Shown: piece by piece, positions 7,568 through 32,369 of the stretch
How positions within the stretch are numbered: the stretch's first letter is position 1
Layout: the number at the start of each line of letters is the position of its first letter
The notes under the pieces: model-generated
Seen by the model: the letters and a program-made list of their open reading frames with translations, nothing else
What the model was told of the DNA's origin: nothing
Database searches by the model: none
NCBI GenBank assembly: GCA_036574075.1
Contig: JAINCN010000021.1
Span: 128,652-161,755 of the forward strand
DNA: 33,104 bases
Reading direction: 5' to 3'
DNA from: Deltaproteobacteria bacterium
Lineage (GTDB): Bacteria; Desulfobacterota; Dissulfuribacteria; Dissulfuribacterales; UBA5754
Made by a program: the position numbers and the translations under genes

Positions 7568-7999
7568 ACCGAGCGACCTGGCCCGTTAGAGCCGGAAAAC
7601 CCTGTATTACTACCATGCGATGCAGGATAACGCAAGAACGGCATCCTAAATCCGTGAGATATGAACTTAACTTGGCAATTTTTCACAATAGCCCGACGTT
7701 CGAGGTGTTTGTGGATGGAGGCGCCCATAAACGGGGCTCGAACGGCAAATCCGCCCCCATGGACAGGGGCCATTTGCCGCACAGAACAAATACCCCGGCC
7801 GTCGGCTTGTTCTGAAAAATCGCAAGGTGGAATACATAACCCACGGATTCAGGTTGACATTTTGTGTGGATGATGGAAATGTGAGATCGAAGGAGTAAAG
7901 CGAAAACGGAAAATGCTCTATATGGGTCCTCATGAAAAGAACATAAAGAAACCGGTTCGCAAAATGCCTTATTCTACAGACTCGTTGGGAGTGAACAAT
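7568..7999. other. Gene-free stretch between tRNA-Pro and the sensor kinase
   Basis: It contains MITE copy 2 (7645-7853). A TTGACA box directly abuts the right terminus of that element (7854-7859), but no good -10 box lies at 16-18 bp. AAGGAG at 7890 precedes an in-frame ATG at 7913, too far for a standard ribosome-binding site. I see no other gene. Confidence 0.6.
7645..7853 (+). mobile_element. MITE-like palindromic element, copy 2 (209 bp, long form)
   Basis: The left end CCTAAATCCGTGAG differs by one base from the other copies; the right end is CCCACGGATTCAGG. Unlike copies 1 and 3, both arms are complete: the right arm keeps about 34 bp (AAAATCGCAAGG, AATACATAAC) that mirror the left arm and are absent from one side of the short copies. 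The interior hairpin CGGCAAAT/ATTTGCCG is kept. No matching target duplication is visible (GGCAT against TTGAC). It is more diverged, so probably older. Confidence 0.75.
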
Positions 8000-11606: not shown

Positions 11607-12971
11607 ATGCACAATAAAGACGAAAAAAACCAGATGCCATCGGCCTTGGCCTCGGCCGAAAAGGGTTCGTTCTTCCCGGTTTACGTCTTTGTCGGCGAAC
11701 GCCCCCTCACTGCTCCCCACGTGCGAAAGCTCCTCTACCTTCTCCTGCCCGAGGGAGAACGGGATGCGAATCTCCATGTCTTTGCGGGCGAGACCATGCG
11801 GACGGAGGACATAATCGAGGCCCTCCACAACCGTTCACTTTTTGGCGGAAGGAAGGTCATCCTCATCCAGGACCTGCCTTTGCCACATAAGGCCGCGCCT
11901 TCCGAAAAGGCATGGTCAAAGGTGTTGAGCGCCATGGATGCAGGAGACGAGGACAAGGCCAAAGGCGAGGCCATCCGCATCCTGGGCCGCCTCGGTGTCT
12001 CTCCAGAAGATGTGAAAGGCCTCCCGGAGTCCTCTGCAAAAAAGCTCCTCGCTTGGCCCGAAAGCGAGCCCCTCACCCGCATCCTCTCCCTGCTCGAGGG
12101 GATGGATCCCCTGCCTGAAAGACCTTCAGGCCATGACGCCCAGGCCCTCCAGGATTCTCTCATGACATGGCTCTCACAGAACCCGGACCCGGCGGATGCC
12201 GTACTCATCATTGAAGTGGAATCAATGGAGAAGAAGGGCCGTTTTTTTGCCGCCCTCTCGAAACACGGCCCTATCATGGACGTAAACCCGCTTGCAGGGG
12301 ACAAAAAGGCGACGCGGGAATCAGCGGCCTGTTTCGTCCGGGAACGCTGTGCCGAACGCGGCAAAAAGATCATACCCCGGGCCGTGGACCTCCTCCTCGA
12401 TCTCGTCGGCGACACGGATCGTGTCGCCCTTTCCGCAGAGGTGGAAAAGCTCCTGGCCCACGCAGGCGAAAGTCCGGCCATCGACGTCTCTGATGTGGAA
12501 GCGCTCTCCTTGCGACACCGCGACGAGGAGGTCTTCGCCCTCACCGAGGCCGTGGGAAGGCAGGACCTCTCTGCGGCCTTCTCATCCCTTTGCCGCCTTC
12601 TTGATCAGGGGATACACCCCCTGGCCCTCTTTCAGGCCTTGTCCGTATTTCTGAGAAGGCTCCTCCTCTTACGAGCCTTTCTCGAAGAGACCCCGGACGC
12701 ATGCCCCAGGACGCCTTCCTATGCCGAATTCACGCGTGAGGTCATGCCAAGGTTCACGTCCTTTCTTGGGTCCTCCCCTCACCCTGCCGTATCCGGCCTC
12801 CATCCCTACGCCCTTTATAAGATCCGGGAATACTCGGGCAAATTTTCGACCGACCGGCTCCTTACGTTGATAAATCGCCTCCCGTCCGTGGACCTGGAGC
12901 TGAAGGGGGGGGCATCGTCAGCCAGGCTCGTGTTGGAAAAATTCATCATGGAAAGTATCATGACCACATGA
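11607..12971 (+). CDS. holA: DNA polymerase III delta subunit
   Basis: HolA is the clamp-loader subunit that opens the beta sliding clamp. The N-terminal pattern FFPVYVFVGERPL and the ALHNRSLFGGRKVILIQDL segment match the delta ATPase-like fold. Domain III is seen in LLDLVGDTDRVALSAEVEKL and EEVFALTEAVGRQDLSAA, followed by QGIHPLALFQALSVFLRRLL. At 454 residues it is about 100 longer than typical HolA; the extra sequence is an acidic, helical insert at roughly residues 95-190. AAAGG sits before the ATG at 11607. It heads a plus-strand operon with overlapping genes to rlmE. Confidence 0.85.
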   Translation: MHNKDEKNQMPSALASAEKGSFFPVYVFVGERPLTAPHVRKLLYLLLPEGERDANLHVFAGETMRTEDIIEALHNRSLFGGRKVILIQDLPLPHKAAPSEKAWSKVLSAMDAGDEDKAKGEAIRILGRLGVSPEDVKGLPESSAKKLLAWPESEPLTRILSLLEGMDPLPERPSGHDAQALQDSLMTWLSQNPDPADAVLIIEVESMEKKGRFFAALSKHGPIMDVNPLAGDKKATRESAACFVRERCAERGKKIIPRAVDLLLDLVGDTDRVALSAEVEKLLAHAGESPAIDVSDVEALSLRHRDEEVFALTEAVGRQDLSAAFSSLCRLLDQGIHPLALFQALSVFLRRLLLLRAFLEETPDACPRTPSYAEFTREVMPRFTSFLGSSPHPAVSGLHPYALYKIREYSGKFSTDRLLTLINRLPSVDLELKGGASSARLVLEKFIMESIMTT

Positions 12972-13138
12972 CCTTCATGCACGATAACGAACGAAAAGAG
13001 GATCTTCAGGGCACGGAGACGAGGCGAATCGCAAGGTTTCTCTTTGAGGGCTCCATGCTCAAGAGGACGTGGGGCACGGGATACGCCTTCCTCGGCCAGG
13101 GGCGGGAGTCCGTTGCCGCACACAGCTTTGGACCATGA
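12968..13138 (+). pseudogene. Remnant of an HD-domain phosphohydrolase (YfbR-like), 56 codons
   Basis: The frame reads RRIARFLFEGSMLKRTWGTG and then YAFLGQGRESVAAHSFG before TGA. This matches the N-terminus of HD-domain nucleotidase-type proteins (pattern FLFE-x2-MLKRT-x2-TGY-x-FLG-x-G-x-ESVAEHSF). Intact proteins continue for roughly 130 more residues with the HD pair and a late Asp; here none follows, because the frame hits TGA and then TAG. The conserved Glu before His is Ala. The ATG overlaps the holA stop, and the stop overlaps the next ATG (both ATGA), so the piece may persist as a translational-coupling ORF. Confidence 0.7.
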
Positions 13139-14115
13139 CACCACGCGCCCTGCCCTTAGCCGCCATACTCTTCATCATCTCCTTTCTCATGTCGGCCTGC
13201 ACCCTCGGATCCCATGCGTCAGGAGACGAAAACCCCCCACCCCCCCTCAAAATCGTCTATTCGGGCAACACCATGGGGTTCCTGGAGCCGTGCCCATCCT
13301 GAAAGGGCAAGAAAAACGGTGGCATAGCCCGCCGGGCCCGGTGGATCCGGGAAAATGACCCCAAAAAAACCTCACCCGCCCTGCTCCTCGATGCGGGTGA
13401 GACATTCTTTCCGACCTGTGACCCTCCGGACGGTTCCCTCAAGGCCTGTGCCCTCCTTCTTCTCGACATCAACAAGGACCTGGGATACGACGTCGTGGGC
13501 GTGGGCGCAAAGGACCTTTCCGCATCCGGAAAATTCCTGCAGGACGAGGCCAGGAAGCGGGGGCTCGTCTTTGTATCCGCAAATCTCCTTCGCAAAGAAA
13601 GGCCGCTCTTTCCCCCCTTTGTGGTCCTGGAACGCAGCGGACTACGTATCGGCATAACAGCGGTAACCGCCCGGCATGTGGGGCAGACCCCTCATGAAGA
13701 GGGGATCAGGATCGAAGAGCCCGACTCAGCGCTTGCACCCGTTATCGAGAAGCTCAGAAAAAAGACCGATCTCGTGATCCTCCTCTCCAGTCTGGGGGAG
13801 GAAGAGGACACAAAACTACTTGCCCGTGTAAAGGGAATCGACATCCTCGTGGGAAGCGGCCCTGGTACGAGACTCAACCGTCCCGAAAGGTTCGAAGGAA
13901 CGTATCTCTTGCGTCCGAACGAGAAGGGGAAGTCCTTGGGGGAGGCAACTGTTCTCTTTGACAGGGATCGGCGCCTAAAGGATCTCCAGGGCCGCCTCGT
14001 CCTTTTGACAGAGGCCTACCCGGAAGACGAAGGGATCAAAATGAAGATAGATGACCTTTACGAGAGATCGAAAGCCGCCTCCGGACAAGGGATACCGGGT
14101 GCTGTCCCGGAATAA
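13135..14115 (+). CDS. Candidate selenoprotein: exported lipoprotein of the UshA/5'-nucleotidase-like family with CxxU motif
   Basis: One frame of 327 codons is open from ATG 13135 to TAA 14113-14115 except for a TGA at 13300-13302. Residues before and after it form one family motif: IVYSGNTMGFLEPCPS, then Sec56, then KGKKNGGIARRARWI. Relatives have a second Cys (EPCGC-x5-GGLARR), so UGA falls where a Cys is expected, giving Cys53-Pro-Ser-Sec56. A possible bacterial SECIS hairpin follows (stem 13317-13322 with 13329-13334, loop CAUAGC), 20 bases after the UGA. The N-terminus is a lipoprotein signal with LMSAC (C22). Later segments LLLDAGETFF, YDVVGVGAKDLS and RIGITAVTARHV match metallophosphatase-like relatives, but the usual metal ligands (DxH, GNHD) are absent. 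A TGA nonsense mutation is the alternative. Confidence 0.75.
13300..13334 (+). promoter_or_regulatory. In-frame UGA with putative bacterial SECIS hairpin
   Basis: TGA (13300-13302) is followed by a 14-base spacer and the stem CGGTGG/CCGCCG (one G-U pair) enclosing CATAGC. The loop lies 20 bases from the UGA, within the range known for bacterial SECIS elements. The stem is short and the loop lacks an obvious leading G, so this is suggestive only. A longer GGGC/GCCC pairing (13305-13308 with 13327-13330) is an alternative fold. Confidence 0.45.
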
Positions 14116-15301
14116 TCCATCTCCTGGCTGTTCCCGTTGCGGCGCGTGTCTCTCCGTCTGTCCGGTCTATCGGGTGACTGGACAGGAACGGATGTCGCCC
14201 CGGGGAAAGGTCCATCTCGTCAGATCCTCGACCCATGCAGGACAAGCCGAGGTCCTTGAGACCCTTTCGGCATGTCTCCAGTGCGGGGCCTGCGCCACTG
14301 TCTGCAGTGCCGGCGTCTCTCCGGCCGCCCTCGTACGAGAAGCCCGTGCGAACAGGGACTTAAATACCCATCTTCCCTGGTGGGTCAGCGGCCTTACAGG
14401 AGAAAGGAAGGTCATACAAGGCCTCGGAAGAATGGTTTCTGGCATTCCTCACTCACGGGGTATTGCATCCCTGTTCCTCCACGATCCTGACATACCCCGC
14501 CTCCTTCCCCTTCTCAGGCAGGAATCAGCGGTATCCCGCCTCTCCCGAAACACTCCGCCACCTGGAGGCTACCCGCGCATCGCCCTTTTTGTGGGATGCA
14601 TCCAGAATTATCTCTTTCCGGAGATCACGCTTGCGATCTCCGACTGGTTCGGAGGCGGGCTAATCGCCCCGGTTGACCAGACCTGCTGCGGCCTTGCGGC
14701 CTGGGTCTCTGGTGACGAGAACCGGGCCCGGGATCTCGCCCGGACGAATCTGGCCGCCTTTCAAAAGGTGCGGCCAGATATTATCGTCACAGGCTGCGCA
14801 TCCTGCGCCTCCATGCTCAGACATACCTACCCCGATCTCTTTCCCGCATCCACGCCGGAAGGACAGGAGAGCCGGCAGATGGCTGCCATGGTCCGGGAGA
14901 TGGGGGAACTTGCAGGAGAGCTTGGCGTCATCCCCCCCAGAAAGAGGGGATCCGGAACCGTGACCTACCACGCCCCTTGCCATCAGAGATTTTCACTCAA
15001 AAGTGCAAAAGAGGTGGAACAGGTCCTTAAATCCATGCCAGGCATGGAATTCATCCCCATGGAGCCCGGCTGCTGCGGATACGGAGGGCTTTTCGCCACC
15101 CGCCACCCGGATCTCTCCCGGAGTGTCTGGGAAGGTCGCAGCAAGGCCTGGCAGAAAACCGGTGCCTCCACCGTGGTCACCACCTGCTCGGGCTGTCTCC
15201 TCCAACTTCGTTTGAGAAGCGCAGAATGCGAGGAGGCGCCTGAGGTCCTCCACCTCGCGGAGCTGGCCTCCAGGCACACGGGCATTGCCGTCCATCCCTG
15301 A
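14099..15301 (+). CDS. GlcF/HdrD-like iron-sulfur protein with two CCG domains
   Basis: A cytosolic Fe-S electron-transfer subunit of about 400 residues. Two 4Fe-4S motifs lie at the N-terminus: CSRCGACLSVCPVY and CLQCGACATVCSAG. Two cysteine-rich CCG domains follow: CCGLAAW with GCASCASM, and PGCCGYGGLF with TTCSGCLLQL. This is the layout of the glycolate oxidase Fe-S subunit GlcF, and also of HdrD/GlpC-type proteins. The GTG at 14099 is chosen because AAGGGA precedes it by about seven bases and the first cluster follows at once; an ATG at 14051 in the same frame is possible. It overlaps the end of the candidate selenoprotein gene. No glcD-type flavoprotein is next to it, so the electron donor is unknown. 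Confidence 0.88.
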   Translation: MLSRNNPSPGCSRCGACLSVCPVYRVTGQERMSPRGKVHLVRSSTHAGQAEVLETLSACLQCGACATVCSAGVSPAALVREARANRDLNTHLPWWVSGLTGERKVIQGLGRMVSGIPHSRGIASLFLHDPDIPRLLPLLRQESAVSRLSRNTPPPGGYPRIALFVGCIQNYLFPEITLAISDWFGGGLIAPVDQTCCGLAAWVSGDENRARDLARTNLAAFQKVRPDIIVTGCASCASMLRHTYPDLFPASTPEGQESRQMAAMVREMGELAGELGVIPPRKRGSGTVTYHAPCHQRFSLKSAKEVEQVLKSMPGMEFIPMEPGCCGYGGLFATRHPDLSRSVWEGRSKAWQKTGASTVVTTCSGCLLQLRLRSAECEEAPEVLHLAELASRHTGIAVHP

Positions 15302-15308
15302 TCATGCG

Positions 15309-15896
15309 ATGAAAAAGGTCCAGGATCACTATTTCAAGAAGGCGAAACAGGAAGGCTATCCGGCACGCTCCGTCTATAAACTGAAGGAGGTGCAGGCAGC
15401 CCGGGGTTTCCTCAAAAAGGGGGACACCGTCCTCGATCTGGGGGCATACCCCGGCTCATGGTCCAAATACATCCTCGAGGTCATCGGACCATCCGGACGA
15501 CTCGTGGCCGTAGACATCACCCCTTTCAGGCCGTTTGCGGAAAACATGATCGTAATCCAAAGAGATATCACTCAACTTGCGCCCCAGGACCTCCTTGCAA
15601 TCCATCCCAAATTCGACTCTATAGTAAGCGACATGGCGCCCAAGACCACGGGGCACAAGGCCCTCGATCACCTCCGCTCCGTGGCCCTCGCCCACAAGGC
15701 CCTCGAACTTGCGCTCGCCGTTGGGTCAGAAGACTGCGCCTTTTTCTGCAAGGTCTTCCAGGGAAGCGATTTCCCCGCCTTTCTCAGCGAGGCCAGGGCC
15801 GCCTTTCGCACGGTAAACGTAGTGAAACCCAAAAGCTCCCGCTCTGAGAGCGTGGAGATCTTTGTTTTCGGAACAGAAATCAAATTAGAGGGGTAG
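15309..15896 (+). CDS. rlmE: 23S rRNA 2'-O-methyltransferase RlmE (FtsJ/RrmJ family)
   Basis: RlmE methylates the 2'-OH of U2552 (E. coli numbering) in the A-loop of 23S rRNA. The order DHYFKKAKQEGYPARSVYKL, VLDLGAYPGSWSKY (SAM site; relatives have GAAPGGW), VSDMAP, CKVFQG and SSRSESVEIFVFG gives the catalytic Lys-Asp-Lys-Glu tetrad. It is about 195 residues, the normal length. The ATG at 15309 fits the family start; an upstream TTG in frame overlaps the preceding gene. It is the last gene of the plus-strand operon and converges on rimI with 4 bp between them. Confidence 0.93.
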   Translation: MKKVQDHYFKKAKQEGYPARSVYKLKEVQAARGFLKKGDTVLDLGAYPGSWSKYILEVIGPSGRLVAVDITPFRPFAENMIVIQRDITQLAPQDLLAIHPKFDSIVSDMAPKTTGHKALDHLRSVALAHKALELALAVGSEDCAFFCKVFQGSDFPAFLSEARAAFRTVNVVKPKSSRSESVEIFVFGTEIKLEG

Positions 15897-19932: not shown

Positions 19933-19985
19933 ATCCCTAAAACCGAAAAACCCCCCTCTGGTAGGGGCACGGCGCGCCGTGCCCC
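19933..19985. repeat. Palindromic repeat, copy A (rpoN upstream)
   Basis: The unit ATCCCTAAAACCGAAAAA, then CCCCCCTCTGGTA, then a perfect 22-bp palindrome whose half is GGGGCACGGCG (19964-19985). It recurs as copy B, 46 bp further on, with one added base. It lies directly upstream of the rpoN start codon and could form a hairpin in the rpoN leader. Confidence 0.85.
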
Positions 19986-20031
19986 AAATTCCACCAAAAT
20001 AACCCCTCACCACAAAAAACACAGAGAAAAA

Positions 20032-20088
20032 ATCCCTAAAACCGAAAAATCCCCCATCTGGTAGGGGCACGGCGCGCCGTGCCCCTAC
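20032..20088. repeat. Palindromic repeat, copy B (touching the lptB stop)
   Basis: The same unit as copy A. Here the palindrome extends to 28 bp, half GTAGGGGCACGGCG (20061-20088). Its last base is the end of the lptB stop codon (TAG, 20090-20088). It may serve as a terminator-like or mRNA-end structure, but there is no T-tract. Confidence 0.85.
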
Positions 20089-20810
20089 TAAAAACGGAAA
20101 TTTTCCCCAAGATAACTCTCCCGCACGACAGGGCTTGAGGCGATCTTCTCCGGAGTCCCCTTTTCAATAATCGTGCCATTATTAACAATATAGGCATGGT
20201 CACAGACAGTCAAGGTTTCCCGAACGTTGTGGTCAGAGAGAAACACCCCGATTCCACGCGCCTTAAGACCCCGGATGATCCCCTGGAGATCGGCGACCGC
20301 CCTCGGATCCACCCCGGCGAAGGGTTCGTCGAGCAGTATGAATGCAGGATCCGTTGCCAGTGCCCGAAGGACCTCGACCCTCCGGCGCTCTCCACCTGAA
20401 AGAGAATCTCCACGCGCCCCGGCGAGATGTCCGATGCCCATCCCGTCGAGAAGCTCCTGTGCACGGATCCTCATTTCGTCCTTTGAAAAACCGCGCGCCT
20501 CAAGAACGAGGCGGATATTGTCCACGACAGAGAGCCTACGAAATACCGATGGCTCCTGGGGGAGATATGTGATGCCCTTGCGGGCCCGCTCGTGCATCGG
20601 AAGCCGGGTGATGTCCTCCCCGTTCAGAGAGACCGTCCCTCCATCCGGCTGGATAAGGCCGGCGATCATATAAAAGGTCGTCGTCTTTCCGGCGCCGTTG
20701 GGGCCGAGAAGACCGACGACGGATTCCCCTGTAAGCTCGATGCTCACGCCATCGACTACTGTGCGACCCCGGTATTTCTTGATGAGCCCATGGGCCTCGA
20801 GGACGTTCAC
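20088..20810 (-). CDS. lptB: LPS export ABC transporter ATP-binding protein LptB
   Basis: LptB powers extraction of lipopolysaccharide from the inner membrane by LptFG. The Walker A motif is LLGPNGAGKTT, the Q-loop is YLPQEPSVFRRLSV, the signature is SLSGGERRRVE, Walker B is FILLDEPFAGVDP, and the switch His is in LSDHNVRETL. The C-terminus VRESYLGENFRF is typical for LptB. It is 240 residues. It overlaps the lptA stop by 4 bases (ATGA). lptF and lptG are not in the window. Confidence 0.96.
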   Translation of the reverse strand: MNVLEAHGLIKKYRGRTVVDGVSIELTGESVVGLLGPNGAGKTTTFYMIAGLIQPDGGTVSLNGEDITRLPMHERARKGITYLPQEPSVFRRLSVVDNIRLVLEARGFSKDEMRIRAQELLDGMGIGHLAGARGDSLSGGERRRVEVLRALATDPAFILLDEPFAGVDPRAVADLQGIIRGLKARGIGVFLSDHNVRETLTVCDHAYIVNNGTIIEKGTPEKIASSPVVRESYLGENFRF

Positions 20811-32184: not shown

Positions 32185-32369
32185 TATTCCCTGAATCCGT
32201 GAGCCTACGGCCGGGGTATTTGTTTCGTGCGGCAAATAGCCCCCATCCATGGGGGCAGATTTGCCGTTCGAGCCCCGTCCATGGGCGCCTCCATCCACAA
32301 ATACCCCGGCCGTAGGCTTATGCTGTGAAATCGAAGGGTTGAGTGCATATCTCACGGATTCAGGTATTC
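32185..32369. repeat. 5-bp target duplication flanking MITE copy 3
   Basis: TATTC at 32185-32189 is repeated exactly at 32365-32369, immediately outside the two termini. Confidence 0.85.
32190..32364 (-). mobile_element. MITE-like palindromic element, copy 3 (175 bp, inserted in a gene end)
   Basis: The same element as copy 1 in reverse orientation and of identical length, with termini CCTGAATCCGTGAG and CTCACGGATTCAGG. The inner stem CGGCAAAT/ATTTGCCG encloses GCCCCCAT/ATGGGGGC. Flanked by a perfect TATTC duplication. Its terminus supplies the TGA stop of the neighbouring DUF499-like gene. It carries no protein gene. Confidence 0.9.

Follow-up and report, generated by a model that had tools for sequence, protein, structure and literature searches.

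The TGA at 13300-13302 of the 33,104-nucleotide stretch of DNA that was analysed (the window) almost certainly directs the incorporation of selenocysteine (Sec) into a UshA-like protein. The selenoprotein type is known, but this protein belongs to a new branch of it, an order-wide clade outside the curated family models. The conservation of the Sec codon, the exchange between Cys and Sec, the Sec machinery of the genome, the fold and the loss of metal ligands were established by computation. On this basis, the gene product is probably an exported pseudo-phosphoesterase in which Sec, usually with a Cys three residues earlier, carries out thiol/selenol redox chemistry. The positions of the features are given in Table 1.

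Table 1. Features of the selenoprotein locus in the window
Feature	Coordinates	Strand	Description	Basis
UshA-like selenoprotein gene	13135..14115	+	326 residues, Sec at the TGA	NCBIfam profiles, relatives, alignment A1
Sec codon	13300..13302	+	TGA, residue 56	Relatives with the same TGA; A1
CxxU motif	13291..13302	+	Cys-Pro-Ser-Sec, residues 53-56	Translation and A1 columns
Signal peptide	13135..13200	+	Ends in lipobox LMSAC (Cys22)	Translation, A1, inspection
RNA hairpin	13317..13334	+	CGGUGG/CCGCCG, six-base loop; nt 18-35 (U of UGA = 1); likely SECIS or part of it	Minimum-energy fold, recoding tests
holA	11607..12971	+	DNA polymerase III delta subunit; conserved upstream neighbour	NCBIfam, neighbourhood comparison
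HD_3/YfbR-like gene remnant	12968..13138	+	56 aa; about 470 bp shorter than in the same-genus relative	Comparison with relative
CCG/Fer4_8 iron-sulphur protein	14051..15301	+	GlpC/GlcF/LdhH-like; conserved downstream neighbour	Pfam, NCBIfam, neighbourhoods
RlmE/FtsJ-type rRNA methyltransferase	15285..15896	+	Conserved downstream neighbour	Neighbourhood comparison

Conservation of the in-frame TGA and the Sec machinery

Translation of the window gave a single frame (13135-14115) with a sole in-frame TGA (13300-13302), exactly as the original prediction had placed them, and the ATG of this frame overlaps the stop codon of the upstream HD-gene remnant (ATGA). The family motif described as continuing across the TGA, GNTMGFLEPCPS-U-KGKKNGGIARR, is real and conserved (the residues around Sec56 are ...YSGNTMGFLEPCPSUKGKKNGGIARRARW...), and the proposed CxxU motif was supported as Cys53-Pro-Ser-Sec56. 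In a genome search, matches to the read-through protein were found in 97 of 148 related genomes, most of them with one in-frame TGA. The TGA was located at the identical motif column in all of the 30 best relatives examined, and the Sec column was invariant in a 23-row alignment (A1). Cys, which had been expected at this column in relatives, replaced Sec in more distant homologues, namely as CGC in one genome of the same order and in others, and as CDC in Omnitrophota; a single-protein query for related loci returned only the Omnitrophota Cys forms. The suggested alignment of homologues across the UGA therefore gave Sec in the best relatives and Cys in the distant ones, the distant forms being C-x-C with a spacing one residue shorter than that of C-x-x-U.

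In comparison with the same-genus relative, dN/dS was approximately 0.34 over the 270 codons after the TGA, and no amino acid changes occurred in the first 16 codons past it. Because purifying selection persists beyond the TGA, its conservation in frame is not a matter of chance. If the TGA were a true stop, the gene would be a pseudogene, would contain a sequencing error, or would encode a short protein followed by an internal restart at 13495; an internal GTG ORF (13495-14115) sharing the end of the full frame does exist, and the adjoining HD gene is itself broken in the same genome. Nevertheless, such a stop is scarcely credible in view of the same TGA in 30 relatives, the purifying selection between the TGA and 13495 (dN/dS of approximately 0.30), the conservation of the motif on either side and the presence of the Sec machinery. 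A pseudogene or real stop was thus rejected on the basis of the TGA conservation and the dN/dS values.

Among the Sec genes whose presence had been put forward as a check, selA (607 bits) and selB (363 bits) were identified by profile searches of the genome, and a tRNA-Sec gene (selC) with the anticodon tca was present. As for selD, no match over the cut-off was obtained in the genome assembly, where the best match was a thiL-like gene, but a Sec-type selD was found in a sister of the same genus. Since the DNA flanking the sister selD matches the ends of two contigs of this genome (C63 and C46), the simplest reading of the missing selD is an assembly gap; the alternative is that selD has truly been lost from the genome. 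The genome has a further use for Sec, as indicated by a second gene with a TGA, which encodes a fused glutamate-synthase-like/ferredoxin/formate-dehydrogenase-like protein with the motif ARV-U-HAPS (L102 position 1909; G000:C64 near 25.4 kb). Both contigs flanking the missing selD end in a dispersed repeat of approximately 165-175 bp, which occurs in direct and inverted copies and is found in the window at 1585-1760, 7644-7807 and 32190-32365. Its 22-base core, TCCGTGAGATATGCACTCAACC, occurred 109 times in the 2-Mb genome when up to two mismatches were allowed, compared with 0 for the reversed control.

RNA folding downstream of the UGA

A hairpin downstream of the UGA had been proposed as the SECIS element, and its arms (13317-13322 and 13329-13334) pair in the minimum-energy fold. 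Since dinucleotide shuffling of the single hairpin sequence was not significant (z 0.40), the folding of the 48 nt from the UGA was compared with that of synonymous recodings across relatives. The z value was below 0 in 29 of 30 relatives. With 19 representatives, the mean z was −1.61 at offset 0 (19/19 negative) and −1.21 at offset 24, and those of the other segments ranged roughly from −0.9 to +0.2. Because folding was better than that of the synonymous recodings only just after the UGA, an RNA structure following the UGA appears to be under selection. Its exact form varies between relatives, and the RNAalifold consensus contained three pairs only, with no covariation and no covarying hairpin. 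An Rfam search of the region yielded chance matches only and no SECIS hit; the Rfam SECIS_1 search of the genome returned nothing, and its controls were silent as well.

The published constraints on bacterial SECIS elements comprise spacing, stem, energy and a G in the first two loop positions (PMC13188914). The window hairpin conforms to those on spacing, stem and energy, but in the minimum-energy fold neither of the two leading positions of its loop, CAUAGC, is a G. The RNA signal after the UGA is real, but the assignment of this particular hairpin as the SECIS is supported only in part, given its loop and the lack of a covarying consensus. By inspection, a classical-like GGTCT loop sequence was recognized in eight relatives, and that of the formate-dehydrogenase-like Sec gene begins at nucleotide 22 counted from the U of the UGA.

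Fold, loss of the metal site and family placement

The 5'-nucleotidase-like ancestry recognized in the original prediction was confirmed by both profile and model, which agree on a metallophosphoesterase fold. The profile matched solved 5'-nucleotidases with an E value of 3.6e-33, and a Foldseek search with a predicted model of moderate confidence (pLDDT 68, pTM 0.73; under 50 in pLDDT at residues 48-59, around the motif) placed 5'-nucleotidases first (E 2.7e-16). However, the ligands of the dimetal 5'-nucleotidases (NDxH, GD, GNHE, H and GHxH) are not retained. When the metal-ligand columns of the 23 A1 rows were read via an alignment with the solved enzymes, the Asp of NDxH was found to be replaced by Asn, Ser or Arg in every row except one, and its His was lost in all 23. 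The second Asp ligand survives in some rows, whereas nearly all have lost the Asn and His of GNHE as well as the later His residues, those of GHxH and xxHxG being kept only in the phylum-level outgroup (L042/L044). NDFHG is retained in canonical paralogues, and the CxxU motif maps near the position that the metal motif NDxH occupies in canonical homologues. Since almost all of the metal ligands are gone, the window protein is unlikely to have nucleotidase or phosphatase activity, judging from its sequence. Compared with UshA and CD73, it shares the fold and the overall alignment but lacks both the metal ligands and the C-terminal nucleotidase domain, and the thiosulphohydrolase SoxB is a distant homologue (E 3.5e-18) whose dimetal site is likewise absent here.

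The family had been suspected to be undescribed. In fact, NCBIfam contains two models under the name 'UshA-like (seleno)protein' (NF041198 and NF049981), the CxU type of UshA-like selenoprotein was already described in 2008 (PMC2398784), and a 2026 review lists CxU and CxxU UshA-like families (PMC13188914); a new selenoprotein family was therefore rejected. The window protein scored 169.6 bits against the cut-off of 275 for NF041198, with positions 10-272 of the 519-position model matched, and 105.5 bits against the cut-off of 140 for NF049981, with positions 1-258 of the 262-position model covered; no Pfam model matched it, Metallophos included. As judged from the E-values, all 23 aligned members would fall short of both cut-offs. 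With the PCGU type (NF041198; COG0737 UshA-like, 2008 GOS study), to which the raw score was higher, the protein shares a Sec five residues before the GG, but it has C-x-x-U (PCPSU) in place of the C-x-U (PCGU) of that type. The CxxU motif and single-domain length of UshA-like selenoprotein family 2 (NF049981; PMC13188914) are both found in the window protein, which shares with this family the fold, the motif PC-x-x-U-GGK-x-x-GG, a similar length and the lack of a C-terminal domain, yet falls below its cut-off. True NF049981 members were found in 5 of 395 genomes of the phylum (254-286 bits, motif PCPSU or PCPTU). In the tree, in which the exact branching is provisional owing to incomplete family-2 rows in the alignment, the Sec proteins of the same order and one outsider formed a clade (95/94) apart from the NF049981 clade (97/96).

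The finding is modestly new in that an order-wide clade lies beyond the curated models, its metal site has been lost and Sec has outlasted its Cys. Because its scores are below both curated selenoprotein models, standard annotation likely splits or truncates this gene, though most genomes of its order carry it.

Proposed chemistry and gene neighbourhood

Hydrophobic signal-like N-termini were recognized by inspection throughout A1, in line with the export originally predicted, and the window protein is thus presumably exported. It had also been taken for a lipoprotein; the lipobox in the window agrees with this, but lipidation is not conserved in the same-genus homologue, which has LMPLC instead, other members have ordinary signal peptides, and lipidation is not a feature of the family. 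SelB-dependent recoding of the UGA would yield an exported selenoprotein in which the N-terminal, metallophosphoesterase-type part of a 5'-nucleotidase (UshA/SoxB superfamily) is present and the C-terminal nucleotidase domain is missing. Its active group would most likely be the Sec56 selenol, which in most members could join Cys53 in a reversible selenenylsulphide, and the thiol/selenol redox chemistry would probably take place outside the cytoplasm. The presence of C-x-x-U in most A1 members suggests such a selenenylsulphide redox centre. Three lineages, however, keep Sec and lack the Cys (L036 SKSU, L131 VHSU and L075 DSGU); a selenenylsulphide is therefore not the universal mechanism, and Sec may also act alone.

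Given these three lineages, Sec56 alone might be a nucleophile or a sulphur or selenium carrier, for example as a perselenide or a thiosulphonate-type adduct, with Cys53 as an accessory. This would be reminiscent of SoxB, which hydrolyses sulphonate from a cysteine-bound carrier, and a SoxB model and SoxB structures were among the matches. We regard this as unlikely, since most members retain the Cys, SoxB depends for its chemistry on a dimetal site that this protein has lost, and the similarity to SoxB is weaker than that to 5'-nucleotidases. The location of the motif near the NDxH place of canonical homologues, together with the loss of the old ligands, would suit a selenolate/thiolate ligand of a metal or metalloid in a periplasmic binding or detoxification protein; A1 contains no further conserved Cys/His set to complete such a site, and this role is quite improbable. 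Even less probable is a nucleotidase or other phosphoesterase that is still active and regulated by Sec. In spite of the clear 5'-nucleotidase profile and fold matches, the metal ligands are lost throughout the clade, the substrate-binding C-terminal domain is absent (326 aa vs about 520 in the matched enzymes) and Pfam Metallophos gave no match.

Redox chemistry at Sec56 remains the favoured reading. The literature searched yielded no biochemical evidence on any of the UshA-like selenoproteins, and the lost metal site and invariant Sec provide a testable proposal for these uncharacterised proteins, namely that they are redox proteins and not phosphatases. More tentatively, the clade may represent a third branch of UshA-like selenoproteins, spread across the order, in which a metal-dependent phosphoesterase fold was turned into a metal-free selenol redox protein and Sec is more essential than Cys.

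The usual gene order within the order is holA, HD-domain gene, UshA-Sec gene, CCG iron-sulphur gene and rlmE. The adjacency of the CCG iron-sulphur gene, to which the original prediction had drawn attention, was conserved in 13 of 21 neighbourhoods, but adjacency says nothing on contact, and a direct partnership is hypothetical. Since the CCG protein has no obvious export signal by inspection, it is doubtful that it touches an exported partner directly. In relatives, a longer HD gene lies between holA and the selenoprotein gene; the shortening by approximately 470 bp at 12968-13138, in comparison with the same-genus genome (L076 1420-2061), may reflect either a true deletion or a collapse in the assembly. 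In another family of the phylum (L093-L095), the UshA-like Sec gene has selA and a B12-binding radical SAM gene as neighbours, and in L088 and L091 a UshA-like Sec gene with the diverged motif CPGU-GD adjoins multihaem CXXCH cytochrome and DUF4124 genes. Elsewhere in the window (19939-20105), between rpoN-like and ABC transporter genes, there were two 47-nt repeats 100 bp apart, adjoined by a 31-nt inverted repeat (GGGGCACGGCG/CGCCGTGCCCC).
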